NCBI GenBank assembly: GCA_017467845.1
Contig: JAFUKH010000074.1
Coordinates: forward strand, 1-43,836
DNA length: 43,836 bases
Direction: 5' to 3'
Source: Lachnospiraceae bacterium
GTDB lineage: Bacteria > Bacillota > Clostridia > Lachnospirales > Lachnospiraceae
The stretch's first letter is position 1, and every line of letters starts with the position of its first letter. The translations under genes were made by a program, and so were the position numbers. Below, piece after piece: positions 21,555-37,109 of this stretch. The notes beneath the pieces are model-generated. The model was not told where the DNA came from and did not search any database. It saw only the letters and a program-made list of their open reading frames with translations.

Positions 21555-24500
21555 ATGAGAAGACTTATAAGTAAGAGACCGAGAAGCCGGATAAAAAGAG
21601 CAATTGTATTTATCCTGTCCCTTGTACTTATTCTACAGACTTTCTTTCCATGCGGAACAGAATTTATGGTAAGTGCAATGGATTTTGTAGAGGATGATAA
21701 TCCATCCTATACAATTTATTTTGATGCAACCCAGATAGCAATGGAAAAAAGCTTTGTAGAAGGTGGAGTGTACCTTTATGCCTACGAGGATTTTTTTTAC
21801 CCAGACCGGAAAACGTTTTCCAAAAACCCGGTACAAATGACGCCGTCGGAATTGGGGGAAAATTTTTTTGAATGCAAGTTGGATGAAATGTACACCAATG
21901 TACAGTTTTTCCTTGGAAGTTCCATGGATGCTGAGATTCAATCACCCGTACTTACAGTGGATTGGACACAGTATTCGGCACCCTGTTATACCATGTCGCT
22001 TGTGCCTGATACGGTATCTGCAAGCGATAGCCTGACGGACACCGTATCGACGAATGATCAACCTGTGGATACGGAAATGACCTATTCTGTACAGATGGAA
22101 CTTACAGATTTAGGAGAACTCTCCGGAGCTTATGGCATGGAGGATCTGGTGGCAGGTACTTTCGATTTAACAAAGGCAGTTACATTAGAAGCCGGACGAT
22201 TGTATCTGAATCCTGCAGGAATGAACTTGGGGGATAAAGATTGGAGTACCGAATCGGAAGTCTATATCAGCCTGCCTGCTTGGAAAGAGGACGCTTTAAA
22301 CAGTAAAGGAACAAGGGATTCAGCGACGGGATATTGGTGGTGGGATATATCTTCTTGGAATAGTACGGATGATTATTTTTTCTTTGCCATATCCAGTAAT
22401 TGGGACACAATAAAAAGCGGCGATTATTACCGTACTGCGTTGAGTAGTATAAAACTCAGCGAGGTGAAAGCAAAGGTAGCTGATAAAGGGGTTGTATTTG
22501 TACAAGATGGTACAGCGTCCGGAACAATTGATAATAAAAAAGTATATGCCATTAATGAGTTCACCTCTTTAGAAGGGCAGACCATTTACTTTGTAGACGC
22601 TACGGAAACTCTTACTGCTGTCAAAGCTGTTTTCTCAGAGACAAGCGGTTTTGATACTACAGAGGAAGTAACAGTCGAGTCAACGGAAAGTGCATCTGCG
22701 GTGCTTTCTTTCACAATCCCGGGCGAGCAAAAATATGTAAAGTTTGTAGATGAAAACGATAATCAATTGGGAGATATCTACAACCTTTACGGAGAAACAG
22801 AAAATGGGGTACAGAGTATTCTCTTTACTGCAGGTACTAGCGATACTTACTACTACAATGTTACGGAAAAGACGGATAGTACAATTAGTACTTGGGGAGT
22901 TACACCGGAAACGGATGAAACCCCTCTTGCAGGGAAGACAATCTACTTTGACAAGCTCCATTTCCACGCAGAGCAGGAGAGTTATTTACAGATTGGGGAA
23001 GGCGAATCCATAAAATTAGGTGCTACCTCAGATGATGAGAATACATTGAGCTATACTTTCCCGGTGGATTCCGGGGCCACATCTCAGACATGGCTTACCT
23101 TTATGGCAGCAGACGGAACCAAATATCGTTTCCGCTGGAGTGATTTCGGAACAGATGCAGATCCTGTGAATGAGGTAACGCTGAATTACAATGTTGCCTA
23201 TGTAACGGGAGAATACGAAAAAGCGGTTACAGTATATTTTGATGCTACCTTTTCAAAGTTATTCTACGGAACGGAAGGCGGTTCTACGGGAATTCCGGCA
23301 AATGGCGGTACCGGTATGATTCGGTATTATGCCACAAAGAGCGATGATTCATCAGCTTTTGCAGAAGGCGATATGGAATTGGTAGCTGCGTATTCTGTAG
23401 ATGGTCATGCATGGAAGGATGTCTATAAAGCAGATTTACCGGAAGGGTATGACAAAATTGTATTTTCGAACTTTGATATGACAAATGCCACCAACTATGG
23501 TGGCTACGGCAATAGTACTACAACGTTGACAATTCCTGCAACGCTGAAAAACCCTTGCTTCTATGCGGATGTGGGAGATGCATCAGCATATACTGCTTAT
23601 CCCGATGGTACAAGAGACGGATATTGGGCTGAAGTTTATTCCATAAGGGACGCAGAAAAGGGAAAAAGTACTGCACAGGCCGAGATAGATGTTGTAGACA
23701 TTGATGACGACCAGATTTTCACCAGAGCATCAAATGTACTTTACATCAATTCAACATTTTATGACTATTATACGGACTATGAGCTGAACGGTAATAACCG
23801 CGATACTTACAAGTACGACAATGGTATGTCTCATCGTAACTGGGTGACATTCCGACAGTTCAATCAGGCTCTTAGTGATTATTATAAGGAAAACAGTGTT
23901 TCCATTCCTATATATACGGGACACTTCCAGCCAAGTGCATATGCTGACAGTGATACATTTGAACTGATTCAGCCGGATTTGCAGTTATATGGTTATTATG
24001 AAAACTATAACCTTTTTATGGCTGTAAATAATTCCAACTACGATGTGAACGGAAATGATAAGAAAGTAGATTATGCTGCACAGGGACTGGTATCATCTAC
24101 GCTGGTACAGGATGCGCTGAAGGTAGCAACAGGTACCGGAAGTGTGATATCCGAGCCGCATTTTGACGAAGCCTTTTTGGCAGGAGAGAATAGTAAAAAT
24201 GCAGTGCTTGGCGATGTGTATCACAATGTAGCATTTCCTTTCAAACAGGTGGATGATGATAATGATGGTATAAGCTACTGGCATTTTAATAGTAAAGACA
24301 CGACTCTGGCAATGAAGCAGGATCCGAATACCAATGCTTACTATCTGCAAGATGTGGGAAATCAAAATTGGTCTAAAAATGTGGACAGTGCTTCAGAGGT
24401 GGCTGAGGTTTCTACGACATACGGCTTCTTCCCGTTTAATGAGACCAGTACTGCGACACATGCCAATACCTATAATTACGGTTTTGGGGCGAAGTTGGAA

Positions 24501-27413
24501 TTTCAATTCCGATTAACAGAGAATGGAAAGGTCTTAAATAATAAGGGCGACGAAATTCCTATTACCTTTGAATTTTCGGGTGACGATGATGTATGGGTTT
24601 TTATCGATGACCAGCTGGTATTGGATGTAGGTGGTGCCCATGGAATTGTTCACGGTGAGATTAATTTCGCAGATAAAATGGCAACCGTAGAAAAGGCAAA
24701 GGTAATCGACGCCTCACATCCGGAAGCTGAACCGGCCAAGTCCACATTCACGCTGTCCGGTAATACTTCCACAGAGCATACGCTTACCATGTACTATATG
24801 GAGCGCGGTATGTGGGAATCCAATATGGAAATCAAGTTTAACTTCCCGGATGAAAACCAGCTGGAAGTGGAAAAGCAGGTGGACAAGACGGATGTAAACG
24901 ACATGTTCCGTAATCTGTTTGATAATGTATCATTGTTTGAATATAACATCATGAATTTGGCAACCCATTATGGAGAATACAAGGTGACAAATTCCGCACA
25001 GGCAGCAACCAAACAGACCTTCAATGATACCTTCAATGATTCCACGGGAGATGATGAGGTCAATCCTACGGAGGCAGCCAATACATTTGCGCAGGTAACT
25101 GATTTTGGCGGACATACAAATGTGGTGCATTGGTATGCAAAATATACAGATACCGGGGGAATGTATCGAGACGAACGCTACGGAATTATTCAACCGATGA
25201 ACGGCACTCCGGTTGATATTTCCGGAATGAGCTATTTGGAATTCTCTTTCTATTATGATTATTACGATACCCCTTCTCTTTCCAATATGTATCTGCAATT
25301 GGTTGATACAGGTGGAAAAATAAAGGGAAATACCACAGATTATCTATCCGGAAAAACTTATGGTATTGTCACTATGGCAAATAAGCAGTGGGTTACTGTG
25401 AAGATCAACTTAGGTGCCTTAGCTGCAGAGGAAGGATTTAATAGTCAGGTACAAGAAATCCGGTTTGGATACAATTATCCCAGAGATATCTATCTGGATG
25501 ATTTCATTTTCTGTCCGGCAGCAGTGGCAGGAGAACTGACCGGTTTCGTGACAAAGCAGTATCATATTCCGGATTATGGATCAGCCACCTCCGGGAAACT
25601 GGAAATACCTGTAGGAGCTACATATTCATCCTCTACCGGGGAAAACCGTGTAATTGGCGAGGATGGAACCTTTTACTTACAAAATGGAGAATCCATAGTC
25701 TTCAAGGATCAGTTCCGGCGAGGAAGCTACATATATCTGGAAGAGAAAACGAATGCTTTATTTGAGACTACCTGGACGATGTATGAAAACGGGCAGGCAG
25801 TGAATTATTCACCAAATGCCTTCGGCTCGGGAAGTACGGTGGCAAACGGAGTAGTGAATTCCTTACAAAGCGTTTCGGGAACTGTGGTGAATGACGATAG
25901 AACCGAAGCGGTGATAGATACAACAATTACAGATAATGGTACAGATATAGTTTCAAAGAATGCATATACGGAAGCAAAACAGCCTTCGGAAAAAGAAACA
26001 TTTGTATTCCGTTCCTATGCAAACCCGGATGATGTTACCACCACGACAAAACTAAAAGTGGTTTACACCAATAAAGTAAAGGTGGGCAGCCTGAAAATCA
26101 CAAAAGAAACGCTTTATCCGGATGAGACATTGAGTGGCTCTTATCAGGTGAAAGTAGTCTTCTCCAATATAGGTGGTATCGCATTGGAGGATGCACCTAT
26201 TGAGACAACGGTGACGTTAATGGCGGGAGGGACTGCAACAATTGAAGGAATTCCGCTGGGAACCTTCTATACGGTAGAGGAAATAACGCCTACCGATGGT
26301 TCTTATCTTGGAGAGGTCATAATATCTCATCCAAGCCGTATGATGATTGAGCCGGGAACCTATATCGCAAAAGGTGTGATAGATGAGCAGACGGGCGATG
26401 ATACCATACCGATAGTTACCTTTAGGAATACCATGGAACCGAAGATTTCCGCTTCTGTTATCAAGAAATGGACGGATGAATTAACCGGTACAGAATTACA
26501 GTCAAATCTTCCGGCGTCTATCCGTGTGCAGTTGCAGCGAAAGCAGGAAAATGCGGAGGATAGTACATATGAAGTGGTAACTGATTATGAGGCGATTACC
26601 ATTGAACCCGCAAGGGAGAATGGTGCGGTAGTCTGGAAGTACACAGCCGGAGGGTTAGATAAGGTGGTTGATTATCCTAATGCTGATGGGGATCCCACAA
26701 ATGATAATATCAAGTGGGTTTACCGGTTTGTGGAGATTGACAGCAGCGGAGATGTACTGGAGAACGGTCAGGTGCTTACTTTGCAGAGCGGAACCGCGGA
26801 AGAAGATTATGAAGTAACCTATGGGAATCCCACTGCAGACGGCGATACCGGTGATTATTCCGGCACCATTACCAATACGCTACTGGGTCCGTCAAACTTA
26901 AAGATTACGAAAAGTTCATCAGAGACGGATGAGCGGTTACCGGGAGTAAAATTCCAACTGAAAAAGTGGGATGAAGAACAGAATTCTTATGTTGCAATAA
27001 CGAATGGGGAACAGTCTACATCGGATTATACGGATGGTGACAAAGTTACCGGCGGAGAAGCAGTCTTCTCTGATCTGGAAAACGGAACCTACCAATTGAC
27101 AGAGCTGGAAACGGCGGATGGGTATACTTTATTGAAGGAGCCAATCATTATTGTTATTGACAGAAAGAACTGTACCTTCACTTATCGCATGGAAAGTGAA
27201 GAGGCAAGTGCAGCGCAGAACCTTACTTTTGATAAGGATACGCGTACCATTGCCTTGTCAATAAAGAATGCTCCCGGCTTCGTATTACCCGCCACCGGCT
27301 GGACTAGTCCCATTTCCTTCCGGACCGGAGTCATCCTATATCTATCATGTATATGTACGGCCATAGGCCTTATATATAGAGGTAAAGTAAGTAAACGTAG
27401 AACAAGCAATTAA
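21555..27413 (+). CDS. Giant LPATG-anchored pilus tip/adhesin with fibro-slime and CnaB/SpaA domains
   Basis: 1952 residues. A Lys/Arg-rich start and a hydrophobic segment (about 15-38) form a signal peptide. The first ~650 residues hold a repeated beta module marked by IYFDAT-like strands near 51, 214, 341, 459 and 558. From about 890 to 1100 lies a fibro-slime/PA14-like domain (SGDDDVWVFIDDQLVLDVGG, GIVHGEI, LTMYYMERGMWESNMEI). A middle beta region follows, then a CnaB domain (from about 1632) and a SpaA domain (from about 1781) with an E-box-like TELETADGY. LPATG at 1911-1915, a membrane helix and a KRR tail form the sortase signal. Its place first in a pilus operon, before backbone and sortase, fits a tip adhesin that contacts glycans or host surfaces. 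The ligand is unknown. Confidence 0.9.
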   Translation: MRRLISKRPRSRIKRAIVFILSLVLILQTFFPCGTEFMVSAMDFVEDDNPSYTIYFDATQIAMEKSFVEGGVYLYAYEDFFYPDRKTFSKNPVQMTPSELGENFFECKLDEMYTNVQFFLGSSMDAEIQSPVLTVDWTQYSAPCYTMSLVPDTVSASDSLTDTVSTNDQPVDTEMTYSVQMELTDLGELSGAYGMEDLVAGTFDLTKAVTLEAGRLYLNPAGMNLGDKDWSTESEVYISLPAWKEDALNSKGTRDSATGYWWWDISSWNSTDDYFFFAISSNWDTIKSGDYYRTALSSIKLSEVKAKVADKGVVFVQDGTASGTIDNKKVYAINEFTSLEGQTIYFVDATETLTAVKAVFSETSGFDTTEEVTVESTESASAVLSFTIPGEQKYVKFVDENDNQLGDIYNLYGETENGVQSILFTAGTSDTYYYNVTEKTDSTISTWGVTPETDETPLAGKTIYFDKLHFHAEQESYLQIGEGESIKLGATSDDENTLSYTFPVDSGATSQTWLTFMAADGTKYRFRWSDFGTDADPVNEVTLNYNVAYVTGEYEKAVTVYFDATFSKLFYGTEGGSTGIPANGGTGMIRYYATKSDDSSAFAEGDMELVAAYSVDGHAWKDVYKADLPEGYDKIVFSNFDMTNATNYGGYGNSTTTLTIPATLKNPCFYADVGDASAYTAYPDGTRDGYWAEVYSIRDAEKGKSTAQAEIDVVDIDDDQIFTRASNVLYINSTFYDYYTDYELNGNNRDTYKYDNGMSHRNWVTFRQFNQALSDYYKENSVSIPIYTGHFQPSAYADSDTFELIQPDLQLYGYYENYNLFMAVNNSNYDVNGNDKKVDYAAQGLVSSTLVQDALKVATGTGSVISEPHFDEAFLAGENSKNAVLGDVYHNVAFPFKQVDDDNDGISYWHFNSKDTTLAMKQDPNTNAYYLQDVGNQNWSKNVDSASEVAEVSTTYGFFPFNETSTATHANTYNYGFGAKLEFQFRLTENGKVLNNKGDEIPITFEFSGDDDVWVFIDDQLVLDVGGAHGIVHGEINFADKMATVEKAKVIDASHPEAEPAKSTFTLSGNTSTEHTLTMYYMERGMWESNMEIKFNFPDENQLEVEKQVDKTDVNDMFRNLFDNVSLFEYNIMNLATHYGEYKVTNSAQAATKQTFNDTFNDSTGDDEVNPTEAANTFAQVTDFGGHTNVVHWYAKYTDTGGMYRDERYGIIQPMNGTPVDISGMSYLEFSFYYDYYDTPSLSNMYLQLVDTGGKIKGNTTDYLSGKTYGIVTMANKQWVTVKINLGALAAEEGFNSQVQEIRFGYNYPRDIYLDDFIFCPAAVAGELTGFVTKQYHIPDYGSATSGKLEIPVGATYSSSTGENRVIGEDGTFYLQNGESIVFKDQFRRGSYIYLEEKTNALFETTWTMYENGQAVNYSPNAFGSGSTVANGVVNSLQSVSGTVVNDDRTEAVIDTTITDNGTDIVSKNAYTEAKQPSEKETFVFRSYANPDDVTTTTKLKVVYTNKVKVGSLKITKETLYPDETLSGSYQVKVVFSNIGGIALEDAPIETTVTLMAGGTATIEGIPLGTFYTVEEITPTDGSYLGEVIISHPSRMMIEPGTYIAKGVIDEQTGDDTIPIVTFRNTMEPKISASVIKKWTDELTGTELQSNLPASIRVQLQRKQENAEDSTYEVVTDYEAITIEPARENGAVVWKYTAGGLDKVVDYPNADGDPTNDNIKWVYRFVEIDSSGDVLENGQVLTLQSGTAEEDYEVTYGNPTADGDTGDYSGTITNTLLGPSNLKITKSSSETDERLPGVKFQLKKWDEEQNSYVAITNGEQSTSDYTDGDKVTGGEAVFSDLENGTYQLTELETADGYTLLKEPIIIVIDRKNCTFTYRMESEEASAAQNLTFDKDTRTIALSIKNAPGFVLPATGWTSPISFRTGVILYLSCICTAIGLIYRGKVSKRRTSN

Positions 27414-27429
27414 GAAAGGACACAAGATA

Positions 27430-29547
27430 ATGAGGAAAATGAAAAAGTTTTTAGCCGCAGTGCTGGCAATGGCGTTGACAATGTCTATGGTGCCCATGAC
27501 AGCACTTGCTGACACAACAGGGGGCGCATCCGTAGTGAATCCTGCGCAGACTACTGGGGAAACAATTGACACAACGAAAACAGGTTCTTTGACAGTTTAT
27601 AAGTATGAGTTTAGAGATGGTACAACAACTGGAACAAGCGCAGGAACCGGACAGCAGGAGCAGATTCCGGATGGAGCAACTGTGATTGAGGGAGTAGGCT
27701 TTACGCTGTATAAGGTTTCTGATTTAGATAGCTATTATGCTTCAGATTCCGTAAGTCTTCCGACGACTGCACCAAGTAATTTGGCTAATCTTACACCAAT
27801 AGGAGGCGCAGAACAATTAACAGACACAGATGGTAAAGTATCCTGGACAAATCTTGATTTGGGTATTTACTATGTTGTGGAAAGTACTCCGCCTGTAAGT
27901 GCAGTTAGTAATCCGGTAGAGTTCTATGTATCTATTCCTATGACTACGGTAAATGGAGAGAGCTGGTTGTATGATGTAGTAGTATATCCGAAAAATACTA
28001 CTTCTTATGCAGGCGTCATACTTAAGAAAATTGGTAATAATACGGACACTACGCTTATTTCAGATGCTCGATTTGTGTTGGAAAAATATGATTCAACAAA
28101 TACCGCTTGGTATTATGTAAAGAATACCGAAACAGATGATGCGAAACCTGCCAATTGGACATATAACACCACAGAAAAGAATCAGGCTACTGTATTTAGT
28201 ACCGGCGATGCAGGCACTATTCAGATTGAAGGATTATCATATGGTATATATCGTTTTACAGAAACTTATGCCCCTGATGGATATATTATGGATGAAACAA
28301 TTTATCATGCATTTGAGATAGATCAAGCTGGTAAGGTTTATAACTATAATGTTGCCACTACAGCAACAGGTGATGAGATTACAGATAAAACGATTGTGGT
28401 AAACAACGAAAAGCCGGCTGTAGATAAGCAGACTAAAAATGTAGGTGGAACCTGGGGCGATGATGCAGATTATAGTATCGGCGATGAGGTTCCATTCAGA
28501 ATCGTAGTAGATGTACCAGCTAATATTAATAAGTTAAAGACATTTAAGGTAACGGATATCATGTCTGACGGATTAAAATTAGAGGACACGAGTAGGTTCA
28601 CAATAAAGGGATATACATCTACACAGGATATAGACACAGACGCGGACGCAGGAGCAGAGATCACAGGTGTGAATGTAGCGACAGATACCACAAAGCCGCA
28701 GGAGTGGACAGTAGAGTTTTCTAATGATGTAAAGGCGACCATTGCTGCTGCAAATTACGAGAAAATCGTAATTGAATTCACAGCGAAGCTGGATACAGAT
28801 GCCGTAATAGCCGGTACCGGTAATGCCAATGATGTAAAGCTTACATATAGTAATCAGATTTTAACAGATTCAAATCCAGATGATACTGTGGAACCAGAGC
28901 CTACAGAAAGTGAATTAACAGACAAGGTAGTAGTGTACACTTTCCAGATTAATTTAACAAAAACCTTTGCTGGTCCGGTAAATGGTGAGAGTTATTCGGC
29001 AACATTCCAGCTGTACAGAGCAAAAGCTGATGGAGGTATATCACTTAAATTGAGTGATGGAAGTATAGTACAGGCAGAGCTGGTTGAGAGTGCAACGGTT
29101 ACATATAAGACAGATGAAAACGGAGCTGTAGTAACTGAAAGTGGAGCTACTCTGGACGGAACACTCATTTTTGACGGCTTAGAAAACGGAGACTATTATC
29201 TGGTGGAAACCGCAACAGCACCTGGTTATAACCTGTTAAAAGCACCGGTGGCAGTAACGATAAATCGTGTTTATGAAACCACCATTACCACAACATCAGA
29301 AACAGATGCAAATGGAAAAGTAACAGAAACTACAACATCAACAACTAAGTATTACACTGATACTAGTAAAGCAAACGAACTTGCAGATACAGACGTAACC
29401 CAGACCATCATCAACAGCAAGGGCTTCGTCCTTCCTACCACCGGTGGTGTCGGTACTTATATCTTCGTCTTCGTAGGTGTTTCCATGATGGTTGCTGCAG
29501 TGCTTCTGTTTGTTACCACTAAGAAAAAGGAATCAGAAACCAAGTAA
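27430..29547 (+). CDS. SpaA-type isopeptide-forming backbone pilin (LPTTG)
   Basis: 705 residues. Signal peptide (about 1-27, ends in ALA). Domain 1 ends in the pilin motif VYPKN, with Lys188 as the likely acceptor for sortase-driven polymerisation. A CnaB-like domain follows, with E-box ETYAPDGY. Next is a D2-type isopeptide domain (about 325-500: VDKQTK...YSIGDEVPFRIVVDVP), then a C-terminal CnaB domain with ETATAPGY. LPTTG at 668-672, a membrane helix and a KKK tail close it. YPKN plus LPTTG is the complete signature of a covalently polymerised pilus shaft. The gene is 16 bp after the tip gene and 33 bp before a class C sortase. Confidence 0.93.
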   Translation: MRKMKKFLAAVLAMALTMSMVPMTALADTTGGASVVNPAQTTGETIDTTKTGSLTVYKYEFRDGTTTGTSAGTGQQEQIPDGATVIEGVGFTLYKVSDLDSYYASDSVSLPTTAPSNLANLTPIGGAEQLTDTDGKVSWTNLDLGIYYVVESTPPVSAVSNPVEFYVSIPMTTVNGESWLYDVVVYPKNTTSYAGVILKKIGNNTDTTLISDARFVLEKYDSTNTAWYYVKNTETDDAKPANWTYNTTEKNQATVFSTGDAGTIQIEGLSYGIYRFTETYAPDGYIMDETIYHAFEIDQAGKVYNYNVATTATGDEITDKTIVVNNEKPAVDKQTKNVGGTWGDDADYSIGDEVPFRIVVDVPANINKLKTFKVTDIMSDGLKLEDTSRFTIKGYTSTQDIDTDADAGAEITGVNVATDTTKPQEWTVEFSNDVKATIAAANYEKIVIEFTAKLDTDAVIAGTGNANDVKLTYSNQILTDSNPDDTVEPEPTESELTDKVVVYTFQINLTKTFAGPVNGESYSATFQLYRAKADGGISLKLSDGSIVQAELVESATVTYKTDENGAVVTESGATLDGTLIFDGLENGDYYLVETATAPGYNLLKAPVAVTINRVYETTITTTSETDANGKVTETTTSTTKYYTDTSKANELADTDVTQTIINSKGFVLPTTGGVGTYIFVFVGVSMMVAAVLLFVTTKKKESETK

Positions 29548-29580: not shown

Positions 29581-30477
29581 ATGGATAAAATCAGAATGTG
29601 GTTCATAGCAATCCTATTCCTGTCCGGACTTGGCATTACGCTGTATCCCTTTGTCAGTAATCTGATAGCCCAGTCCAATGCCAGCCGGGCAATTGATTCT
29701 TATAATGAAATAGTTGCCCAGATGGATGAAGAAGAGATTGACGCTGCAAAGGCAGCAATTCAGAAATACAATGAGCAATTAAATAATGCCTTTGTTTCCG
29801 GTCAGGAGATGGAGGAAGGAATCAGCTATGTAGATATGATGGATATCGGAGAGAGCATCGGCTTTATCACCATTCCTAAGATTGACGTAGACCTTCCTAT
29901 CTATAATGGTACCGGGGAGGATGTATTGCAGAAAGGTGTGGGACATCTTGAGAATTCCTCCTACCCGGTAGGCGGTATGGGAACACATTCGGTTTTGACA
30001 GGGCACAGAGGCTTGCCCAATGCGGTTTTATTTACGGATTTGAACAAGCTGGAAGAGGGCGATTACTTTTATCTGCACGTGCTGGACGAGGTATTGGCAT
30101 ATCGTGTTGATCAGATTAAGGTAGTGCTTCCGGAAGAAACGGGGGATCTGAAAATTGAGAAGGACAAGGATTACTGTACCCTTGTGACCTGTACCCCTTA
30201 TGCAGTCAACACCCACAGGCTCCTGGTACGCGGTTCCAGAACGGAGTATATCCCGGAGGAGGAGAGCAGACAGGAGCTGGAATACGTGGATGTTTCTTCC
30301 GGTACCCTTGTAAAGCGTCTGGTAGATGCCAGGGCGTGGCTGGCAGTGGCGCTGCTTGGTATGGTTATTGTAGAATCTATGTTTTTTGTTTTGATTGTTA
30401 GTACAAGGGCAAAGATAAGAAGACGGAAACGAGCCGGTCTCAGAAGACAGAAGGAAAGTCAGAAAGGATGGGAATAG
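29581..30477 (+). CDS. Class C (pilin-polymerising) sortase
   Basis: 298 residues: N-terminal membrane helix, extracellular catalytic domain, second membrane helix near the C terminus (LAVALLGMVIVESMFFVLIV) and a basic cytoplasmic tail, the usual class C layout. Catalytic residues: His142 (TGHRGL), Cys204 (TLVTCTPYAVNTHR) and Arg213. The segment DMMDIGESIGFI before the core is where the lid lies, but I see no classic DPF/W lid motif. It should join LPTTG of one pilin to the YPKN lysine of the next. AAAGGAG precedes ATG 29581. Confidence 0.93.
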   Translation: MDKIRMWFIAILFLSGLGITLYPFVSNLIAQSNASRAIDSYNEIVAQMDEEEIDAAKAAIQKYNEQLNNAFVSGQEMEEGISYVDMMDIGESIGFITIPKIDVDLPIYNGTGEDVLQKGVGHLENSSYPVGGMGTHSVLTGHRGLPNAVLFTDLNKLEEGDYFYLHVLDEVLAYRVDQIKVVLPEETGDLKIEKDKDYCTLVTCTPYAVNTHRLLVRGSRTEYIPEEESRQELEYVDVSSGTLVKRLVDARAWLAVALLGMVIVESMFFVLIVSTRAKIRRRKRAGLRRQKESQKGWE

Positions 30478-30480
30478 CCA

Positions 30481-31431
30481 ATGAAAAGTGTGGGAAAAGC
30501 CCAAGCGATTATGAGAGAAGTAAAGAAGGTAATCGTAGGGAAAGATGCGTGTGTAGAGATGATTATGACGGCTATTCTCGCCGGTGGACATATCTTGATT
30601 GAAGATATCCCGGGAGTGGGCAAGACCACCATGGCACTGGCTTTTGCCAAGGCCATGCATTTGAAGCAGAATCGTATCCAGTTCACGCCGGATGTACTGC
30701 CGTCGGATATTACAGGATTTTCCCTGTATAACAAAGCTACGGATTCCTTCCATTATCAGCCGGGGGCTGTTATGTGTAATCTGCTCCTGGCGGATGAAAT
30801 CAATCGTACCTCTCCCAAGACCCAGTCGGCACTTCTGGAGGTAATGGAGGAGGGCAATGTAACAGTAGACGGTGTGACAAGAGAAGTGCCTACGCCCTTT
30901 ATTGTTATTGCTACCGAAAATCCCATTGGTTCCGCCGGTACACAGATGCTGCCGGAATCCCAGCTGGACCGGTTTATGGTGTGTATCAGTATCGGTTATC
31001 CAAAGCCGGAAGATGAGATTAATATTATCCGAAGCAGAAGGGAACAAAATCCTTTGGAGACGGTAATGCCGGCACTTGAAGAAGGGGAACTGATGCAAAT
31101 GCAAAATGAGGTAACGGCAGTATACATTCATGATGATGTTTATTATTACATTGCAAATCTGGCATTGGCAACCAGAGAGTGTGATATGTTAGAGCTTGGT
31201 ATCAGTCCGCGAGGTTCCATGGCACTTTCAAGAATGGCTCAGGCCAGAGCATATTTGAAAGGAAGAGATTTTGTAATTCCTGAGGATGTGTCAGCAGTAT
31301 TTACCAACACAGCAGTTCACAGAGTGCAGGCTGGTGCGAAGGCGAAGCTGAACCGAAAGTCAGAGGAAGATATCTTAAGACAGCTTTTAGAACAGGTGCC
31401 GAAACCTTCACCGGAAAAGGGTGCATTATGA
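30481..31431 (+). CDS. MoxR-family AAA+ ATPase
   Basis: 316 residues. IPGVGKTT is Walker A, LLLADEINRTSPK is Walker B plus the MoxR signature, and IATENPIGSAGTQMLPESQLDRFM holds sensor 1 and the Arg finger region. The C-terminal helical lid carries GISPRGSMAL. MoxR ATPases usually act with DUF58 and von Willebrand-type proteins as chaperones in maturing protein complexes. The start is 3 bp after the sortase stop and the stop overlaps the DUF58 start by 4 bp, so the three are translationally linked. Confidence 0.93.
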   Translation: MKSVGKAQAIMREVKKVIVGKDACVEMIMTAILAGGHILIEDIPGVGKTTMALAFAKAMHLKQNRIQFTPDVLPSDITGFSLYNKATDSFHYQPGAVMCNLLLADEINRTSPKTQSALLEVMEEGNVTVDGVTREVPTPFIVIATENPIGSAGTQMLPESQLDRFMVCISIGYPKPEDEINIIRSRREQNPLETVMPALEEGELMQMQNEVTAVYIHDDVYYYIANLALATRECDMLELGISPRGSMALSRMAQARAYLKGRDFVIPEDVSAVFTNTAVHRVQAGAKAKLNRKSEEDILRQLLEQVPKPSPEKGAL

Positions 31432-32513
31432 AGCGCTTTATAGTTTATCTGTTTATTTTGTGTATAACGTTGTTGGCAGCAATTGTAACCGGAGGAGCCT
31501 CTGCAATTTTCTTGTTAGGCTTTGAACTTTTGTTGCCAACTTTTTTATACCTTCTGATCCTGTATTTTTCAAAAAATATACAGGTCTGCATAGAGCTTTC
31601 CGTCATAGCTGCCAAGGGGGAAGAGATACCGGTGAAAATCTGCCTGAAAAATAAGGGCAGATTACCCATATCCCGTGTAGAGGCACAGGTTATTTGTCGG
31701 GATGCTTTTGACAGTAGGAGAATCATTGAAACCATGAACTGTGTGATTGATGCCCGGGGAGAATCTTACATCCAAATGGGTATGAGGGCACAATATGCCG
31801 GGCGTCTGGAATTTCAGATTGGCAGGGTGAAGGTCTATGATTATTTTCACCTTCTTTCGAAAAAGGTTCCTTATGATAAGGAATGGCGACAGATGGTAAT
31901 CACGCCGGATATATATCCCATTGGGATTGAGGGCACCACAGATGTGTTCAATGAGTGGCAGAGTGGAGAATTGCACTCTGTGGATAGGAGCGGTGATGAT
32001 GTGTCCGAGGTACATGATGTAAGAGCCTTTCGGGCCGGCGATACCCTTCACAAGGTACACTGGAAATTGAGCGCCAAAACGGAAGAGCTTCTGGTTAAAG
32101 AGTTCAGTGGTTCAATGAAAAACACAGTATTTGTGTTTATAGACCTTTTTTCGGAAAGCCATGAAGAATGGACCCATGAATGTTTCGACCGTATGATGGG
32201 CATGCTGGCATCCTTATCCCATTATCTGCTGCTTCGGGAGCAGACCCATGAGGTGTTTTGGTATGATGATGGGGAAGGAACATTACATTCCGTAACTATT
32301 GCTAAGGAAGAAGACATCTATGAAGCGGTAGGTGAGCTATCCGGAGTCAAAACGTATGATGTACCATATGATTTTCAAATGGTACAGAAAGAGAATGGCA
32401 TCTATGGCCAACAGACCAGAGCTTTTCATGTGGACACAAAGTGCAATCTGTTTTTGGATGAGCGCCGTATTGCGTCTATGACAGGAAACAATATTCGTAT
32501 GGAATGGATATAG
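31428..32513 (+). CDS. DUF58 domain protein with N-terminal membrane segments
   Basis: 361 residues. Two hydrophobic helices (about 5-25 and 30-47) anchor it. The DUF58 core is seen in VRAFRAGDTLHKVHWKLSAKTEELLVKEF (about 200-228), followed by a von Willebrand A-like fold (VFVFIDLFSES). DUF58 proteins are the standard partners of MoxR ATPases. ATG overlaps the moxR stop (ATGA), and the gene overlaps the transglutaminase-like gene by 10 bp. Molecular role in pilus formation is unknown. Confidence 0.9.
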   Translation: MKRFIVYLFILCITLLAAIVTGGASAIFLLGFELLLPTFLYLLILYFSKNIQVCIELSVIAAKGEEIPVKICLKNKGRLPISRVEAQVICRDAFDSRRIIETMNCVIDARGESYIQMGMRAQYAGRLEFQIGRVKVYDYFHLLSKKVPYDKEWRQMVITPDIYPIGIEGTTDVFNEWQSGELHSVDRSGDDVSEVHDVRAFRAGDTLHKVHWKLSAKTEELLVKEFSGSMKNTVFVFIDLFSESHEEWTHECFDRMMGMLASLSHYLLLREQTHEVFWYDDGEGTLHSVTIAKEEDIYEAVGELSGVKTYDVPYDFQMVQKENGIYGQQTRAFHVDTKCNLFLDERRIASMTGNNIRMEWI

Positions 32514-34957
32514 GAATGAAAAGGGAACAAAAAGAAAATGTCAGAATTACCACAATTGCATTTGGGACAAATCATACCGCAAAAGAGAATGTGCTTTTTT
32601 CATTTGTGGTTCCTTTCCTGAGCTTGTTTTTGGCAGTGGCAGGTTTGACAGGCAGCTTTGCTACTGCATTTTCAGTGCAAACAACTGCCTTTTTGTTATA
32701 TTGGGGACTCTTTTTCATTAGTTTGTTTTGGACCATCTTCTCAAAAAGGAAGATGGATGGCATATATAGCTTTTTGGCATTTATAGGGGCCATGGTAGTT
32801 GCCAGTATATTGCTGCTTTTCATGCAGGATAAGGTGATTCCCGGTTTCTTTCAGGTTGCAAATGGTATTTTTGAAACCTTCAATGCAAGCTATGAAAGCA
32901 ATATTGCTCTTTATCAGGTAACAGAGAATCCTTTGTATGTAAGTATTTTTTTGCTTTTTGTTATGTTTCCGGTCAGCGGACTCTTATCCTTTGTGATCAT
33001 CAAAAGGCAAAATGTATGGTGCTTGGTAGCAGTAGTCTTTCCTTTGATTTCCGGAGCTTTTTTGTCCGGGGGCAGCCCGGAGGCACTGTATTTGTTTCTC
33101 ATGCTTCTCTCCTTATTGGGGTTATGGGTGGAAGGAGTTGTGGCAGAGCCCTTCCCCTTAGAATATCTTACAGAGCGTAAATCCCAGGAACGTCATTATC
33201 AGGAAATAAAAAGCAAAGTTATGCTTGGAAGCCTGATTCCGATTACTTTTGTTTCCGCCATTTCCTTCTTTTTGCTTCAGCCGGCGATTTTGTATCCGGT
33301 GAATCAAGTGCGGGAGATGGGAGCAAAGACAGAGGATAGCATACTCCAGACCATTTGGCGTACTTTGCCGGTGATATCCGGTGGGCGACTGCAGATGAGT
33401 GTGGAAGGTGTGGGAGGCGGTGTTGATGAAGGGACGCTTGGAAAGACGGAAGGACACTATTTTGGAAGTGTGCAGGCTTTGAAAGTGAATTGTGGGGAAA
33501 AGCCCGCGGAGACCCTTTACCTGAAGGGATATGTTGGCTGCATTTATACCGGCAACAGCTTTGATGCGGGAAGCGAGGAGCGGTTTCTTGATGCCGCCGA
33601 GGGATGGAAAACGGAGGGGAATTCTTCTCTCTATGTGCAGAATCTTCCCTTTTTACGCATGCTATATGCGGAAAATCTGATTTTGTCAGATACAGAAGAT
33701 GGCCCACAGATGGCGGAAGAGCTACAGGCCTCCGCTGTGGAAATGCAGGTGATAAATCTGAATGCGAACCAGGCATATACTTATGTGCCGTATAATTCGT
33801 ATCTGAATGATTACTACCGGATACTGGCCGGTGATGGTGCAGTGGCAAGCCAAAGTAAGGCGGAGGATATCTTTTCTTATTATCCGCGGAGTGCCTTTGA
33901 AGAAAAGATGGCAGAATGGAAAGAACAGGAAGATGCTCATGGAGTGCTTGACAGTTTGGAAGCTGCCTACGAGAGTTATGTAGTAAATACCTATCTGCAG
34001 GTTCCTGAGAAAGGCTTAGAGCAGCTTTGGGCAGAGTGTGAAGCGGTGGAGCTGGAAGAGGTAGAGGAAATCAGGGAGCATGTTGTAAAAACATTGACAG
34101 AAAAAGCCTCCTTTCAAATGGATGTGGAGCCTTTGCCGGAAGGAGAGGATTTTGTGTCCCGTTTTTTGTATGAAGAACAGGAAGGATATTCTACACATTT
34201 TGCAGCGGCTGCCACTATGATGTTCCGTATGCTGGGAGTGCCTGCACGTTATGTAGTGGGTTATGTTGCTCCGGAGAGTCTTTTCTCCGTGCAGGCGGAT
34301 GGCAGCTATCAGGCAATCTTAGAAGATGACGATGCACACGCATGGGCGGAGATTTATATCTCCGGAATCGGCTGGGTACCTGTGGAAACCACACCGGGTC
34401 TTGTGGCAATCGTAGCGGAAGGAAACGGTGATGTGGATGCAGAGGCTGCAAACCGGGCAGAAAAGGAAGAACCTGAAACGGAGGAGCTCCCGGAACCCCA
34501 GGAGACTGATGGAAAGAAGGTCGGATTTAGCGGGCAACTTGTAGTGGGAATTTTTTGCATCTGTGTGGGAGGAACAATCATTATTGCCTTTTGTAGAAGG
34601 GAAATTCTGATTCAGAAGAGAGCGGGAAAGCAGAGAAAGCCGGATACCGCAGGGAATATTAAATATGTATATCGAAGCTTTCGTTCTTTGCTGGCGTTTG
34701 ACGGATGGGCAGAGGCACCGGGCTGTGAGGCAGAGGAGTTTACAAAACTTTTCACAGAGCGGTATCCTGTATGCTCTGAGGAAGAAATGGAAAGCTTTGC
34801 AATGATAATACTAAAAACCTATTATGGCTGTGACAGACCGGACCGGGAGGAATTGCAGTTTTTAACCAGAATCTATAAGCGAGTAGGAAACAGAATCTAC
34901 CGGCGGTCAACAATTGGAAAACGGCTGAAATTTAAGTGGTGGAATTGTTACATGTAG
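32504..34957 (+). CDS. Transglutaminase-like membrane protein with Ser at the catalytic Cys position
   Basis: 817 residues, TgpA-like layout: about six membrane helices in the first 260 residues, a large extracellular part, a transglutaminase core, one more helix (about 685-705) and a DUF4129-like cytoplasmic tail. The core is GYSTHFAAAATMMFRMLGVP, then DDDAHAWAEI and WVPVETTPG. In active family members the first motif is GYCxHFA; here Ser563 replaces the Cys, while His612 and Glu628 (in place of Asp) remain. It may be a pseudoenzyme or use serine. It sits between DUF58 (10-bp overlap) and a second sortase (6-bp gap), so it belongs to the pilus operon. Confidence 0.88.
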   Translation: MDIGMKREQKENVRITTIAFGTNHTAKENVLFSFVVPFLSLFLAVAGLTGSFATAFSVQTTAFLLYWGLFFISLFWTIFSKRKMDGIYSFLAFIGAMVVASILLLFMQDKVIPGFFQVANGIFETFNASYESNIALYQVTENPLYVSIFLLFVMFPVSGLLSFVIIKRQNVWCLVAVVFPLISGAFLSGGSPEALYLFLMLLSLLGLWVEGVVAEPFPLEYLTERKSQERHYQEIKSKVMLGSLIPITFVSAISFFLLQPAILYPVNQVREMGAKTEDSILQTIWRTLPVISGGRLQMSVEGVGGGVDEGTLGKTEGHYFGSVQALKVNCGEKPAETLYLKGYVGCIYTGNSFDAGSEERFLDAAEGWKTEGNSSLYVQNLPFLRMLYAENLILSDTEDGPQMAEELQASAVEMQVINLNANQAYTYVPYNSYLNDYYRILAGDGAVASQSKAEDIFSYYPRSAFEEKMAEWKEQEDAHGVLDSLEAAYESYVVNTYLQVPEKGLEQLWAECEAVELEEVEEIREHVVKTLTEKASFQMDVEPLPEGEDFVSRFLYEEQEGYSTHFAAAATMMFRMLGVPARYVVGYVAPESLFSVQADGSYQAILEDDDAHAWAEIYISGIGWVPVETTPGLVAIVAEGNGDVDAEAANRAEKEEPETEELPEPQETDGKKVGFSGQLVVGIFCICVGGTIIIAFCRREILIQKRAGKQRKPDTAGNIKYVYRSFRSLLAFDGWAEAPGCEAEEFTKLFTERYPVCSEEEMESFAMIILKTYYGCDRPDREELQFLTRIYKRVGNRIYRRSTIGKRLKFKWWNCYM

Positions 34958-34963
34958 GAAGGA

Positions 34964-35686
34964 ATGAATAAGGTGAAAATAAAAAAGTATATTCCGGCAG
35001 TTCTTTTTTCGATTATGGGACTGACCGGACTGGGTATAGCAATATATCCAATGCTGAGTAACTACATAAAACAAAGCCAACAGGAGCAGATTGTAGAGGA
35101 GTATCGGCAGCAGACGGCAGAGCTGGAGCAACAAAAGTATGATGTGTTGTATGAGCAGGCAAAGGAGTATAACAGGCGGCTTTATGAAGAGGATATTGAT
35201 TTTATCAATATGGAAAGTTACAAGCCGGAGCTATTGGAAGCAGGGCTTGATTATAATAAACTTTTGCGGGTAGAAGAAGAGGCGGTAATGGGCTATCTAA
35301 ACATAGAAAAGCTGGATGTCTGCCTGACGATAGACTATGGAACAGAGGAAGAAGTCCTGCAGAAGGCTGTAGGACACATGGAAGGGACGTCCATGCCTAT
35401 AGGCGGGGAGAATACACATGCCGTGTTATTTGGACATCGGGGCTTACCTTCTGCAAAATTATTCACGGATTTAGATCAGTTAGTAATTGGAGATACGTTT
35501 CAAATCCATGTATTAGATCGTACGTTGAACTATGAGGTGGATCAGATTCTTGTGGTAACTCCTGAGGAAACGGATGATTTGATGATAGAAGATGGCAAGG
35601 ATTATGTAACTCTTGTTACTTGTACACCTTATGCAGTAAATACGCACAGATTATTAGTTCGGGGAGTACGTGTACCGGAATACTAG
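34964..35686 (+). CDS. Second class C-like sortase
   Basis: 240 residues: one N-terminal membrane helix (about 7-27), a Gln/Glu-rich helix, then the catalytic domain with His158 (FGHRGL), Cys220 (TLVTCTPYAVNTHR) and Arg229. Unlike the first sortase it has no C-terminal membrane helix and ends soon after the Arg, at VPEY. The core is clearly of the same class, so the pair may divide work between polymerisation and tip or base attachment. GGAAGGAATG precedes the start. 22 bp separate it from the next gene. Confidence 0.92.
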   Translation: MNKVKIKKYIPAVLFSIMGLTGLGIAIYPMLSNYIKQSQQEQIVEEYRQQTAELEQQKYDVLYEQAKEYNRRLYEEDIDFINMESYKPELLEAGLDYNKLLRVEEEAVMGYLNIEKLDVCLTIDYGTEEEVLQKAVGHMEGTSMPIGGENTHAVLFGHRGLPSAKLFTDLDQLVIGDTFQIHVLDRTLNYEVDQILVVTPEETDDLMIEDGKDYVTLVTCTPYAVNTHRLLVRGVRVPEY

Positions 35687-35708: not shown

Positions 35709-37109
35709 ATGAGAGAATGGAAACGCAGACTGGGGATGTTGTTGTTTGCTGTTTGCTTGGGAGGTTACTTTACTCTGCCGGTTTCTGCAGCTGAGGAGAT
35801 TGATATCGCGCAAAATGGAACAGGAACATTGACCGTTCTTTTTGAAACATCAGATGAGGAAATGGGTATTCAGGATGCGGAATTTACCATTTACCGGGTA
35901 GAGGAACTGGTAGAGGTGAATGGAGTGCAACAATTGGAATGGAATCCTGAATTTGAAGACTGTGGCATTTCTCTGGAAAATCTGACTGCGTCTCAAATGA
36001 ATCAGGCAGCCATAGATTTGAACGATTATGTAGAAGGAAGCCGGATTATTGGAGTCGCACAATCCACTGATGAAAGTGGTAGTGCAGCTTTTACCCATCT
36101 CACTTTTGGAACATATTTGGTTGCGCTAAGTGATATTCCGGAGGATTATCTGACTATTGATCCGTTTCTTATTTCTGTGCCGATGAAAGATGTGGATGGA
36201 AAAATATTATATGATGTAGTTACCATGCCGAAAACAGAGCGTTTACCCCAGGGGGGCTTAGTTACGTCCCCTACGCCGTTACCCACACCGGAGACAACGG
36301 TGGCTCCTATGCCTGAGGAACCGGCAGAACCTACATTAGCCCCGGTGTTACCTACACCCGGGCCGGTGGGACCCAAACTCCCACAGACAGGACAGGCACG
36401 CTGGCTTGTGCCTGTGCTTTTGGGATTCAGTTTACTTGTGTTTGTGGCAGGCTGGATGATGCTTCGGAGGAAGGCCGGGAAATACCTGATGGGCAGTGGC
36501 GTTATGCTTTTTGTTGTCATGCTTGTGGTGGCAGGATACCAGAATTATACAGAGCAGGCCAGTGAAAATGCTGTGGAGGATATGCGTATTGTCTATGAAG
36601 AGGCGATGCAGAGGGGAGATATGATTATAAGACCTTCAGAGCAGGCGGTTGAGGGCAAAGAAGAAGCTGAGGTAAATGTAGAAAACAAGATGGAAGTGGT
36701 AGTGGATGCAATGCCTTATATCCAGATAGAAGATGAGGCCTGCATAGGTGTGATTTCTATCCCGGCAATTGACATTTCATTACCTGTTAACAAAGATTGT
36801 TCTGTGGACTCACTAAAAAAGATGCCATGCCGATACGTGGGTGATGTTCAGCAAAGTTTCATGGTAATTGCAGCACATAATTATGATAAACATTTCGGGA
36901 ATATTTCTCTCTTAGCGGCCGGTGATGAAGTGAAATTTACGGACGTAGAAGGGCAGGAATATTGCTTTGAAGTAAAGGAAGTGGAAATACTGGGGGCTTA
37001 TGATGTGGAAGAAATGGTAACCGGAGATTGGGATTTGACATTATTCACCTGTACCTATGGGGGACAGAATCGAGTTACCGTCCGCTGTTGTTTTAAAGAG
37101 TCTTTGTAA
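35709..37109 (+). CDS. Pilin-sortase fusion: SpaA-like pilin, LPQTG signal, two membrane spans and sortase domain
   Basis: 466 residues from ATG 35709 (AGGAG 11 bp upstream; two further in-frame starts at 35670 and 35688 would spoil the signal peptide). Signal peptide ends in VSA (about 27). A pilin-like domain (30-185) ends in MPKT (Lys175), in the place of YPKN. A Pro/Thr/Glu stalk leads to LPQTG (224-228), membrane helix (about 231-252), basic RRKAGK, a second helix (about 257-278), a linker with a helical region and a sortase domain: IGVISIPAIDISLPV, His390 (IAAHNYDKHFG), Cys448 (LFTCTYGG), Arg455 and Arg459. The sortase part resembles class B/D rather than class C. Both pilin and sortase domains lie outside the membrane. 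Cleavage at LPQT-G would free the pilin part and leave an anchored sortase. Confidence 0.9.
   Translation: MREWKRRLGMLLFAVCLGGYFTLPVSAAEEIDIAQNGTGTLTVLFETSDEEMGIQDAEFTIYRVEELVEVNGVQQLEWNPEFEDCGISLENLTASQMNQAAIDLNDYVEGSRIIGVAQSTDESGSAAFTHLTFGTYLVALSDIPEDYLTIDPFLISVPMKDVDGKILYDVVTMPKTERLPQGGLVTSPTPLPTPETTVAPMPEEPAEPTLAPVLPTPGPVGPKLPQTGQARWLVPVLLGFSLLVFVAGWMMLRRKAGKYLMGSGVMLFVVMLVVAGYQNYTEQASENAVEDMRIVYEEAMQRGDMIIRPSEQAVEGKEEAEVNVENKMEVVVDAMPYIQIEDEACIGVISIPAIDISLPVNKDCSVDSLKKMPCRYVGDVQQSFMVIAAHNYDKHFGNISLLAAGDEVKFTDVEGQEYCFEVKEVEILGAYDVEEMVTGDWDLTLFTCTYGGQNRVTVRCCFKESL

Follow-up and report, generated by a model that had tools for sequence, protein, structure and literature searches.

A likely basal pilin and a sortase encoded as one protein with an internal LPQTG signal in Lachnospiraceae

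The described basal pilins, such as SpaB, FctB, GBS52 and RrgC, contain one to three Ig-like domains with a pilin-like lysine and, in most cases, a Pro-rich tail, followed by an LPXTG-type sorting signal, and their genes lie in operons with those for a tip pilin, a backbone pilin and a class C sortase. These proteins end after the sorting signal. In this report, we analyze a gene that resembles them in each respect (with one Ig-like domain), but whose product continues past the signal into a sortase. The gene lies in a 43,836-nucleotide stretch of DNA from a Lachnospiraceae bacterium (assembly GCA_017467845.1, contig JAFUKH010000074.1), all of which we refer to as the window. The arrangement is real and conserved, and a search of open-licence literature, by the titles and abstract beginnings of the papers listed, found no description of a natural pilin-sortase fusion; PMC7902606, in the excerpt available, uses the term "sortase domain" for a sorting signal.

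In pili that have been described, elongation is ended by the basal pilin, which the housekeeping sortase carries and which then becomes linked to peptidoglycan (excerpts of PMC8244301 and PMC8088525). According to the excerpt of PMC8244301, the gene for the A-type anchoring sortase lies at another place in the genome, and the anatomy given there for basal pilins is that of the window's pilin half. One domain, a Pro-rich tail, a conserved lysine and an LPXTG signal fit a pilus base fused to such a carrier. The sortase half is like known sortases in its fold, its His, Cys and Arg residues and a membrane helix before the domain, but differs in that its likely substrate precedes it in the chain. 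Enzyme and cleavage site are also united in the engineered srtA-LPETG-cargo and BISOP constructs, and sortase-LPETG-cargo chains cut themselves (PMC2901362, excerpt). However, these constructs are man-made, with the enzyme first and the cargo last, whereas in the window the substrate precedes the enzyme, separated from it by two membrane helices. Finally, two-gene pairs in Clostridia (99 places) share the window's sortase subfamily and LPQTG-x-L-x-W-P signal and mostly follow a class C sortase, but their halves are separate genes.

The fused protein

The gene (35709..37109, + strand) is a single uninterrupted frame of 466 amino acids (aa) plus stop, open across 483 codons. The original prediction, made from the sequence alone, placed in it a signal peptide, a SpaA-like pilin domain, a Pro-rich stalk, an LPQTG-helix-RRK signal, a second membrane helix and a sortase domain. 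Open reading frames and profile matches agree with this layout. The pilin domain (35796..36242) is real, but D1 is the better name for it: GramPos_pilinD1 (PF16555) matches residues 47-175 above its cut-off (24.3 versus 23.1 bits), and SpaA (PF17802) scores slightly below its own (22.8 versus 23.1 bits). The signal peptide covers residues 1-28 (35709..35792), with a signal-peptidase-like site, VSA/AEE, recognized by eye. To the earlier list of features we add Lys175 (36231..36233), which lies in the sequence TMPK, resembles the lysine of pilin motifs and is conserved as K in 28 of the 30 pilin domains aligned. A Pro-rich tail follows at residues 181-223 (36249..36377; 13 Pro in 43 residues). 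A single D1 domain, this tail and the pilin-motif lysine are the features by which we regard this half as a likely basal pilin.

The LPQTG motif occupies residues 224-228 (36378..36392), and the originally proposed cleavage position, Thr227-Gly228, is therefore correct. The LPXTG_anchor profile (TIGR01167) matches residues 223-255 with 22.2 bits (cut-off 15.9), and motif, hydrophobic helix and basic residues are all present. Proteins of this profile are expected to carry the signal at the C-terminus, but here the stretch between the first residue of LPQTG and the end of the frame is 243 residues long. Transmembrane-like stretches at residues 228-254 and 256-278 flank a basic loop, RRKAGK (residues 253-258; 36465..36482), which is approximately where the two genes meet in split relatives. 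The first membrane helix is placed at residues 233-250 (36405..36458) by an AlphaFold2 model and the sequence; the second (TM2; residues 259-278; 36483..36542) is equivalent to the helix at the N-terminus of free-standing relatives.

The sortase domain (residues 337-466; 36717..37106) is recognized by profile, alignment and model, with a match to Sortase (PF04203) at residues 349-460 (58.8 bits; cut-off 26.6). His390, Cys448, Arg455 and Arg459 stand where the original prediction had them. The first three are invariant in all 28 aligned sortase halves, three of which are fused, and the Arg459 column is at least 90% identical. The fusion remains below the cut-offs for class C (NF033745, 35.0 versus 160 bits), class D (NF033746, 22.5 versus 165 bits), the NCBIfam class GN model and the general sortase model TIGR01076 (33.5 versus 39.35), and no class A model is among its listed NCBIfam matches. 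It is the operon and the sorting signal that suggest a class A-like (housekeeping) role, namely, anchoring of the basal pilin to the wall.

In the AlphaFold2 model (predicted local distance difference test score, 85.6; predicted template modeling score, 0.58), residues 28-178 match a pilin D1 fold and residues 286-464 a sortase fold. A linker at about residues 303-336, ahead of the catalytic domain, is mostly of low confidence. The top structural match of the sortase half is SrtD5, although the class D profile cut-off is not reached; the VIA-align rows in which matches were sought are mostly sortases, so the lack of a family there is no evidence. A DP[FWY] lid motif does not occur at residues 256-345, which we did not use as an argument.

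Relatives, cognate sorting signal and origin

Searches with the whole protein gave matches in 78 of 250 genomes of the family and 8 of 101 genomes of the genus. Among the latter, no other fusion was recognized by frame length, except for a 1113-aa frame matched in its pilin part only. A profile of the sortase half (A1) detected relatives in 65 of 392 genomes sampled across the order and 51 of 391 sampled across the class, the window's own genome included. Sortase frames of at least 400 aa were rare. In the order sample, they occur in five of the 65 genomes, namely, the window's own genome, G012 and three from a single genus whose frames span about 1035 aa; in the class sample, they occur in the window's own genome and in G1032. 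The 405-aa frame of G1032 was judged by eye to be split, its upstream part resembling another frame of the pilin gene. Two further candidates by frame length were rejected and are not counted: in G058, the sortase has a 245-aa frame of its own (L126), and the copy in G098 is spread over two frames (L127). A plasmid search returned two records, both matched in the pilin part only. A scan of named genomes contributed the best 80 of 582 loci, picked by likeness to the query.

Among 125 distinct places of the sortase subfamily, 99 lie behind a separate LPXTG-type gene, seven are fused, 15 have no recognized partner and four are at contig edges. These numbers exclude identical sequences, L001-L003, L043, L044 and sortase matches below 150 bits; L125 (143 bits) and L150-L152 (153-159 bits, added later) are also outside them. 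A partner was defined as an LPXTG-like gene that ends at most 400 nucleotides (nt) before the sortase frame or overlaps that frame, and four partners are fragments of less than 120 aa (L031, L071, L088 and L107). We scanned the 48 of 99 partners that are about 180-345 aa long with a signal-peptide-like start; at E values of at most 0.01, SpaA is matched by 28 of them, Cna_B by 23 and pilin D1 by 19. In all, there are eight distinct pilin-type fusions: the window's, L007, L008, L046, L048, L049, L104 and L125, the last found beneath the score limit. The same architecture, proposed originally as something to look for, therefore occurs in seven further proteins. The nearest relative, L007 (the same sequence as L045, from isolate cow4.13), belongs to another genus and is fused and colinear with the window's protein at about 58% identity.

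The sorting signals of these sortase partners are distinctive. Gln at the X position together with Trp at motif positions 8-10 was found in 86 of 97 distinct partner tails (from 99 in total) and in none of 91 other LPXTG tails from the same loci, which were collected by a stricter rule (LPxTG, hydrophobic core and basic end). The separation is nearly complete, although the p-value of 1e-41 overstates it because selection rules differed between the two sets and tails from one clade are not independent of one another. The common partner form is LPQTG-[QML]-L-[WN]-W-P, and other tails mostly read LP[SE]TGG-x-GT. All eight fusions have Gln and a Trp at position 9, seven with LPQTG and one with FPQTG. 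That the cognate signal is kept in all eight argues for cleavage, but not for action in cis over action in trans. Within the window locus, the fusion carries LPQTGQARWLVP, a signal of the partner type, whereas the backbone pilin carries LPTTGGVGTYIF and the candidate tip protein LPATGWTSP. The window's own genome (86% complete) has eight DNA matches coding for LPQTG versus seven control matches; two of the eight are in sorting signals, namely, that of the fusion and that of a 539-aa frame on contig C48, whose signal, LPQTGDDFNPWLYG, lacks the WP partner pattern.

The two-gene form suggests how the fusion arose. Split pairs are in different frames in 85 of 99 cases, and the sortase frame is already open at least 12 nt before the pilin stop in 72, so a small insertion or deletion could fuse many pairs. 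A start codon precedes the pilin stop in 70 of 99, and the start nearest the helix does so in 36; true overlap of the genes depends on the start codon chosen. Free sortases begin at, or shortly before, the equivalent of TM2. Since most of the relatives examined have the halves in adjacent genes, the best explanation on this comparison is that the fusion joined a pre-existing operon pair by loss of the gene boundary, and split to fused would be the natural direction, given that the split form is in the majority.

The junction is under constraint. Between the window and L007, no alignment gap occurs from LPQTG through TM2. At residues 250-280, the proportion of synonymous sites that differ (pS) is about 1.0 and the ratio of nonsynonymous to synonymous proportions (pN/pS) is 0.24; synonymous differences approach saturation over most of the gene. 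The ratio is slightly lower in the sortase (0.21) and higher in the pilin domain (0.34) and in the Pro-rich tail and linker (about 0.5). Among L046, L048 and L049, LPQTG shows no amino-acid change, and pN/pS is 0.03-0.10 in TM2 and 0.05-0.08 in the sortase.

A quick tree of 129 rows, eight of them fused, needs four changes between split and fused forms, although well-supported branches force only one. In it, the window, L007, L046, L048 and L049 form one supported clade, and L008, L104 and L125 are elsewhere, L125 as a long branch joined to another long branch. A more careful tree of 45 rows, which includes seven fusions but neither L125 nor the three large fusions described below and omits most split rows, needs three changes, of which supported branches force two. 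None of 200 bootstrap trees has a single change, but in an approximately unbiased test, one fused clade was not rejected (p 0.144). From these trees, two to three origins are likely and a single one is possible.

Several related arrangements were seen. G012 carries three loci of this sortase subfamily (L009, L125 and L130), two split and one fused. L054, L069 and L084 encode free-standing sortases of the subfamily with about 200 extra residues between membrane helix and catalytic domain. In three genomes of one genus (L150, - strand; L151 and L152, + strand), a sortase related to that of the window is fused behind a much larger ectodomain in proteins of 1034-1045 aa, in the order Cys-rich-repeat ectodomain, LLPEAG, helix, charged loop, helix and sortase; the L151 ectodomain matches PF14283 (31.7 bits; cut-off 26). 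These are a second kind of substrate-sortase fusion, which may stay joined and uncleaved because the motif is degenerate (A for T).

The probable pilus operon around the fusion

The fusion is the last gene of a likely pilus operon, all on the + strand. A 1952-aa protein (21555..27413) with a SpaA domain is, by its size and place, a likely tip adhesin. It is followed by a likely major (backbone) pilin (27430..29547) with SpaA and GramPos_pilinBB domains and a tail that is not of the partner type, and a class C sortase (29581..30477; NF033745, 275.5 bits, cut-off 160). Next come a MoxR-type AAA ATPase (30481..31431; PF07726 and PF17863), a DUF58 protein (31428..32513; PF01882) and a transglutaminase-like protein (32504..34957; PF01841). 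A second class C sortase (34964..35686; 259.8 bits, same cut-off) is directly upstream of the fusion, which begins 22 bp after it.

For neighbor counts, we used the places among L045-L124 that have at least 3.2 kilobases (kb) of upstream sequence (n = 62); the window's short locus, L006, fell out. Among those with enough upstream sequence, 47 of 52 split places and all four fused places have a class C sortase no more than 2.6 kb upstream. The MoxR, DUF58 and transglutaminase genes, which precede the fusion in the window (30481-34957), also do so in L129, from the L007 genome, and DUF58 and transglutaminase genes precede the fusions L046, L048 and L049, whose loci start inside the DUF58 gene. 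None of the three genes was found in the 52 split places or in L104, nor within the stretches of L008 and L125. Therefore, the fusion of the window's clade goes with this module.

A profile search of the window's own genome identified five sortases: the two of class C, the fusion and two that best match class B. The latter two are outside the locus and score 151.0 and 132.7, under the cut-off of 153.75. At one class-B-like locus of this genome (L005, contig C37, - strand, 1126-2900), the frame of the sortase overlaps the following one, which encodes a protein with a DVPKTGD-type sorting signal at its end; this is another tight enzyme-substrate gene pair.

Proposed mechanism and alternative explanations

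We consider it rather probable that the protein is a basal pilin fused to a dedicated anchoring sortase, and that it is cut at Thr227-Gly228 and cross-linked through Lys175. After removal of the signal peptide, the chain would form a membrane hairpin, a topology predicted from the helices and charges, with the pilin and sortase domains outside and the basic loop inside. The sortase domain of the same or a sister molecule would cut LPQT/G, leaving the basal pilin bound to Cys448 through a thioester. Elongation would end when a class C sortase delivers the growing pilus to Lys175, and the base would then be moved onto the cell wall by the sortase half, which would remain as a two-helix membrane sortase. 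With this topology, cleavage in cis would be sterically plausible, because LPQTG and the sortase would be on the same side, with a mostly low-confidence linker before the catalytic domain. More tentatively, and with a probability somewhat below even, each molecule may cut its own chain and hold its own basal pilin as thioester, and so serve as a 1:1 pre-charged carrier that ends growth and anchors the pilus. The original prediction, a self-processing subunit that releases a free pilin intermediate, is partly supported: the sortase is genuinely fused to a likely basal pilin, and the mid-protein sorting signal is intact. However, processing would probably not stop at a free pilin; as in known basal pilins, this would be expected to become covalently joined to pilus and wall.

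Some observations weigh against this interpretation. The structural matches listed for the pilin half come from D1 domains of backbone pilins (CppA) rather than from basal pilins, and Lys175 aligns with E in the fusion L008. The engineered self-cleaving chains have the opposite order, with sortase first. The inter-helix loop is weakly constrained among L046, L048 and L049 (pN/pS 0.28-0.72 over 15-17 codons). Translation could also begin internally, at an in-frame ATG where TM2 starts (residue 261 of the window's protein), and the five named fusion genomes are metagenome-assembled.

One alternative is that LPQTG is never cut and that the protein is a membrane-bound pilus foot carrying its own sortase domain, with the pilus held by the membrane rather than the wall. 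The fusion does give the pilin a permanent two-helix anchor, so that wall linkage would not be needed to keep it on the cell. We nevertheless regard this as unlikely, since all eight fusions retain the motif and the Trp at position 9 while the Pro-rich tail diverges, and His, Cys and Arg are invariant in the aligned halves. It is improbable, in turn, that the sortase acts mainly on other surface proteins and that the N-terminal domain is merely for docking or adhesion. The genome has the further LPQTG protein on C48 as a potential substrate, but its signal lacks the partner pattern, and the sortase directly follows an LPXTG-type gene in 99 of 125 places, with the pattern in 86 of 97 distinct tails.

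Two explanations concern the junction itself. The halves might be made separately, through an internal start close to TM2 or through slippage, in which case the fusion would behave like the two-gene form; this too seems quite unlikely. The window, L007 and L008 share an in-frame ATG 37 codons after the L of LPQTG, but by eye no well-spaced ribosome site precedes that of the window. L007 and L104 have junction homopolymers, A10 and A8, respectively, which are the only runs of at least 7 in these two genes, and a slip there (in both directions in L007 and in one in L104) would terminate the pilin a few codons further on, just past its basic tail. These two are therefore less certain than the other six fusions. 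No junction run of at least 6 exists in the window, L046, L048, L049 or L125, and runs of at least 7 are not enriched at the junctions of split pairs (2 in 8,550 nt versus 47 in 163,996 nt), so a slippage switch as a general feature is unsupported. The same data bear on a sequencing or assembly frameshift that joined two genes, which is very improbable and which we reject for the window. Most relatives examined do have two adjacent genes (99 of 125 places), as the original prediction had anticipated for such an error, and L007 and L104 have their homopolymers. However, the window lacks such a run, as do the related fusions L046, L048 and L049; seven other fusions exist, and the nearest, in another genus, is colinear without gaps and under purifying selection across the junction. 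Split places and fused relatives together show the origin of the fusion, not a sequencing error.

If the protein is a basal pilin joined to its anchoring sortase, as we prefer, then several consequences follow for pilus biology. Handover of the base from a polymerizing to an anchoring sortase has been described for a housekeeping enzyme encoded elsewhere (PMC8244301, excerpt). Here, the anchoring enzyme appears dedicated, with its own sorting code, and in some lineages is joined to the base, so that the carrier model becomes testable in one polypeptide. The analysis also assigns a likely substrate to a sortase subfamily that is outside the curated classes tested, and provides a natural counterpart to engineered self-cleaving sortases. 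If the fusion is indeed a self-loading terminator, it would fix the ratio of pilus bases to anchoring enzymes.
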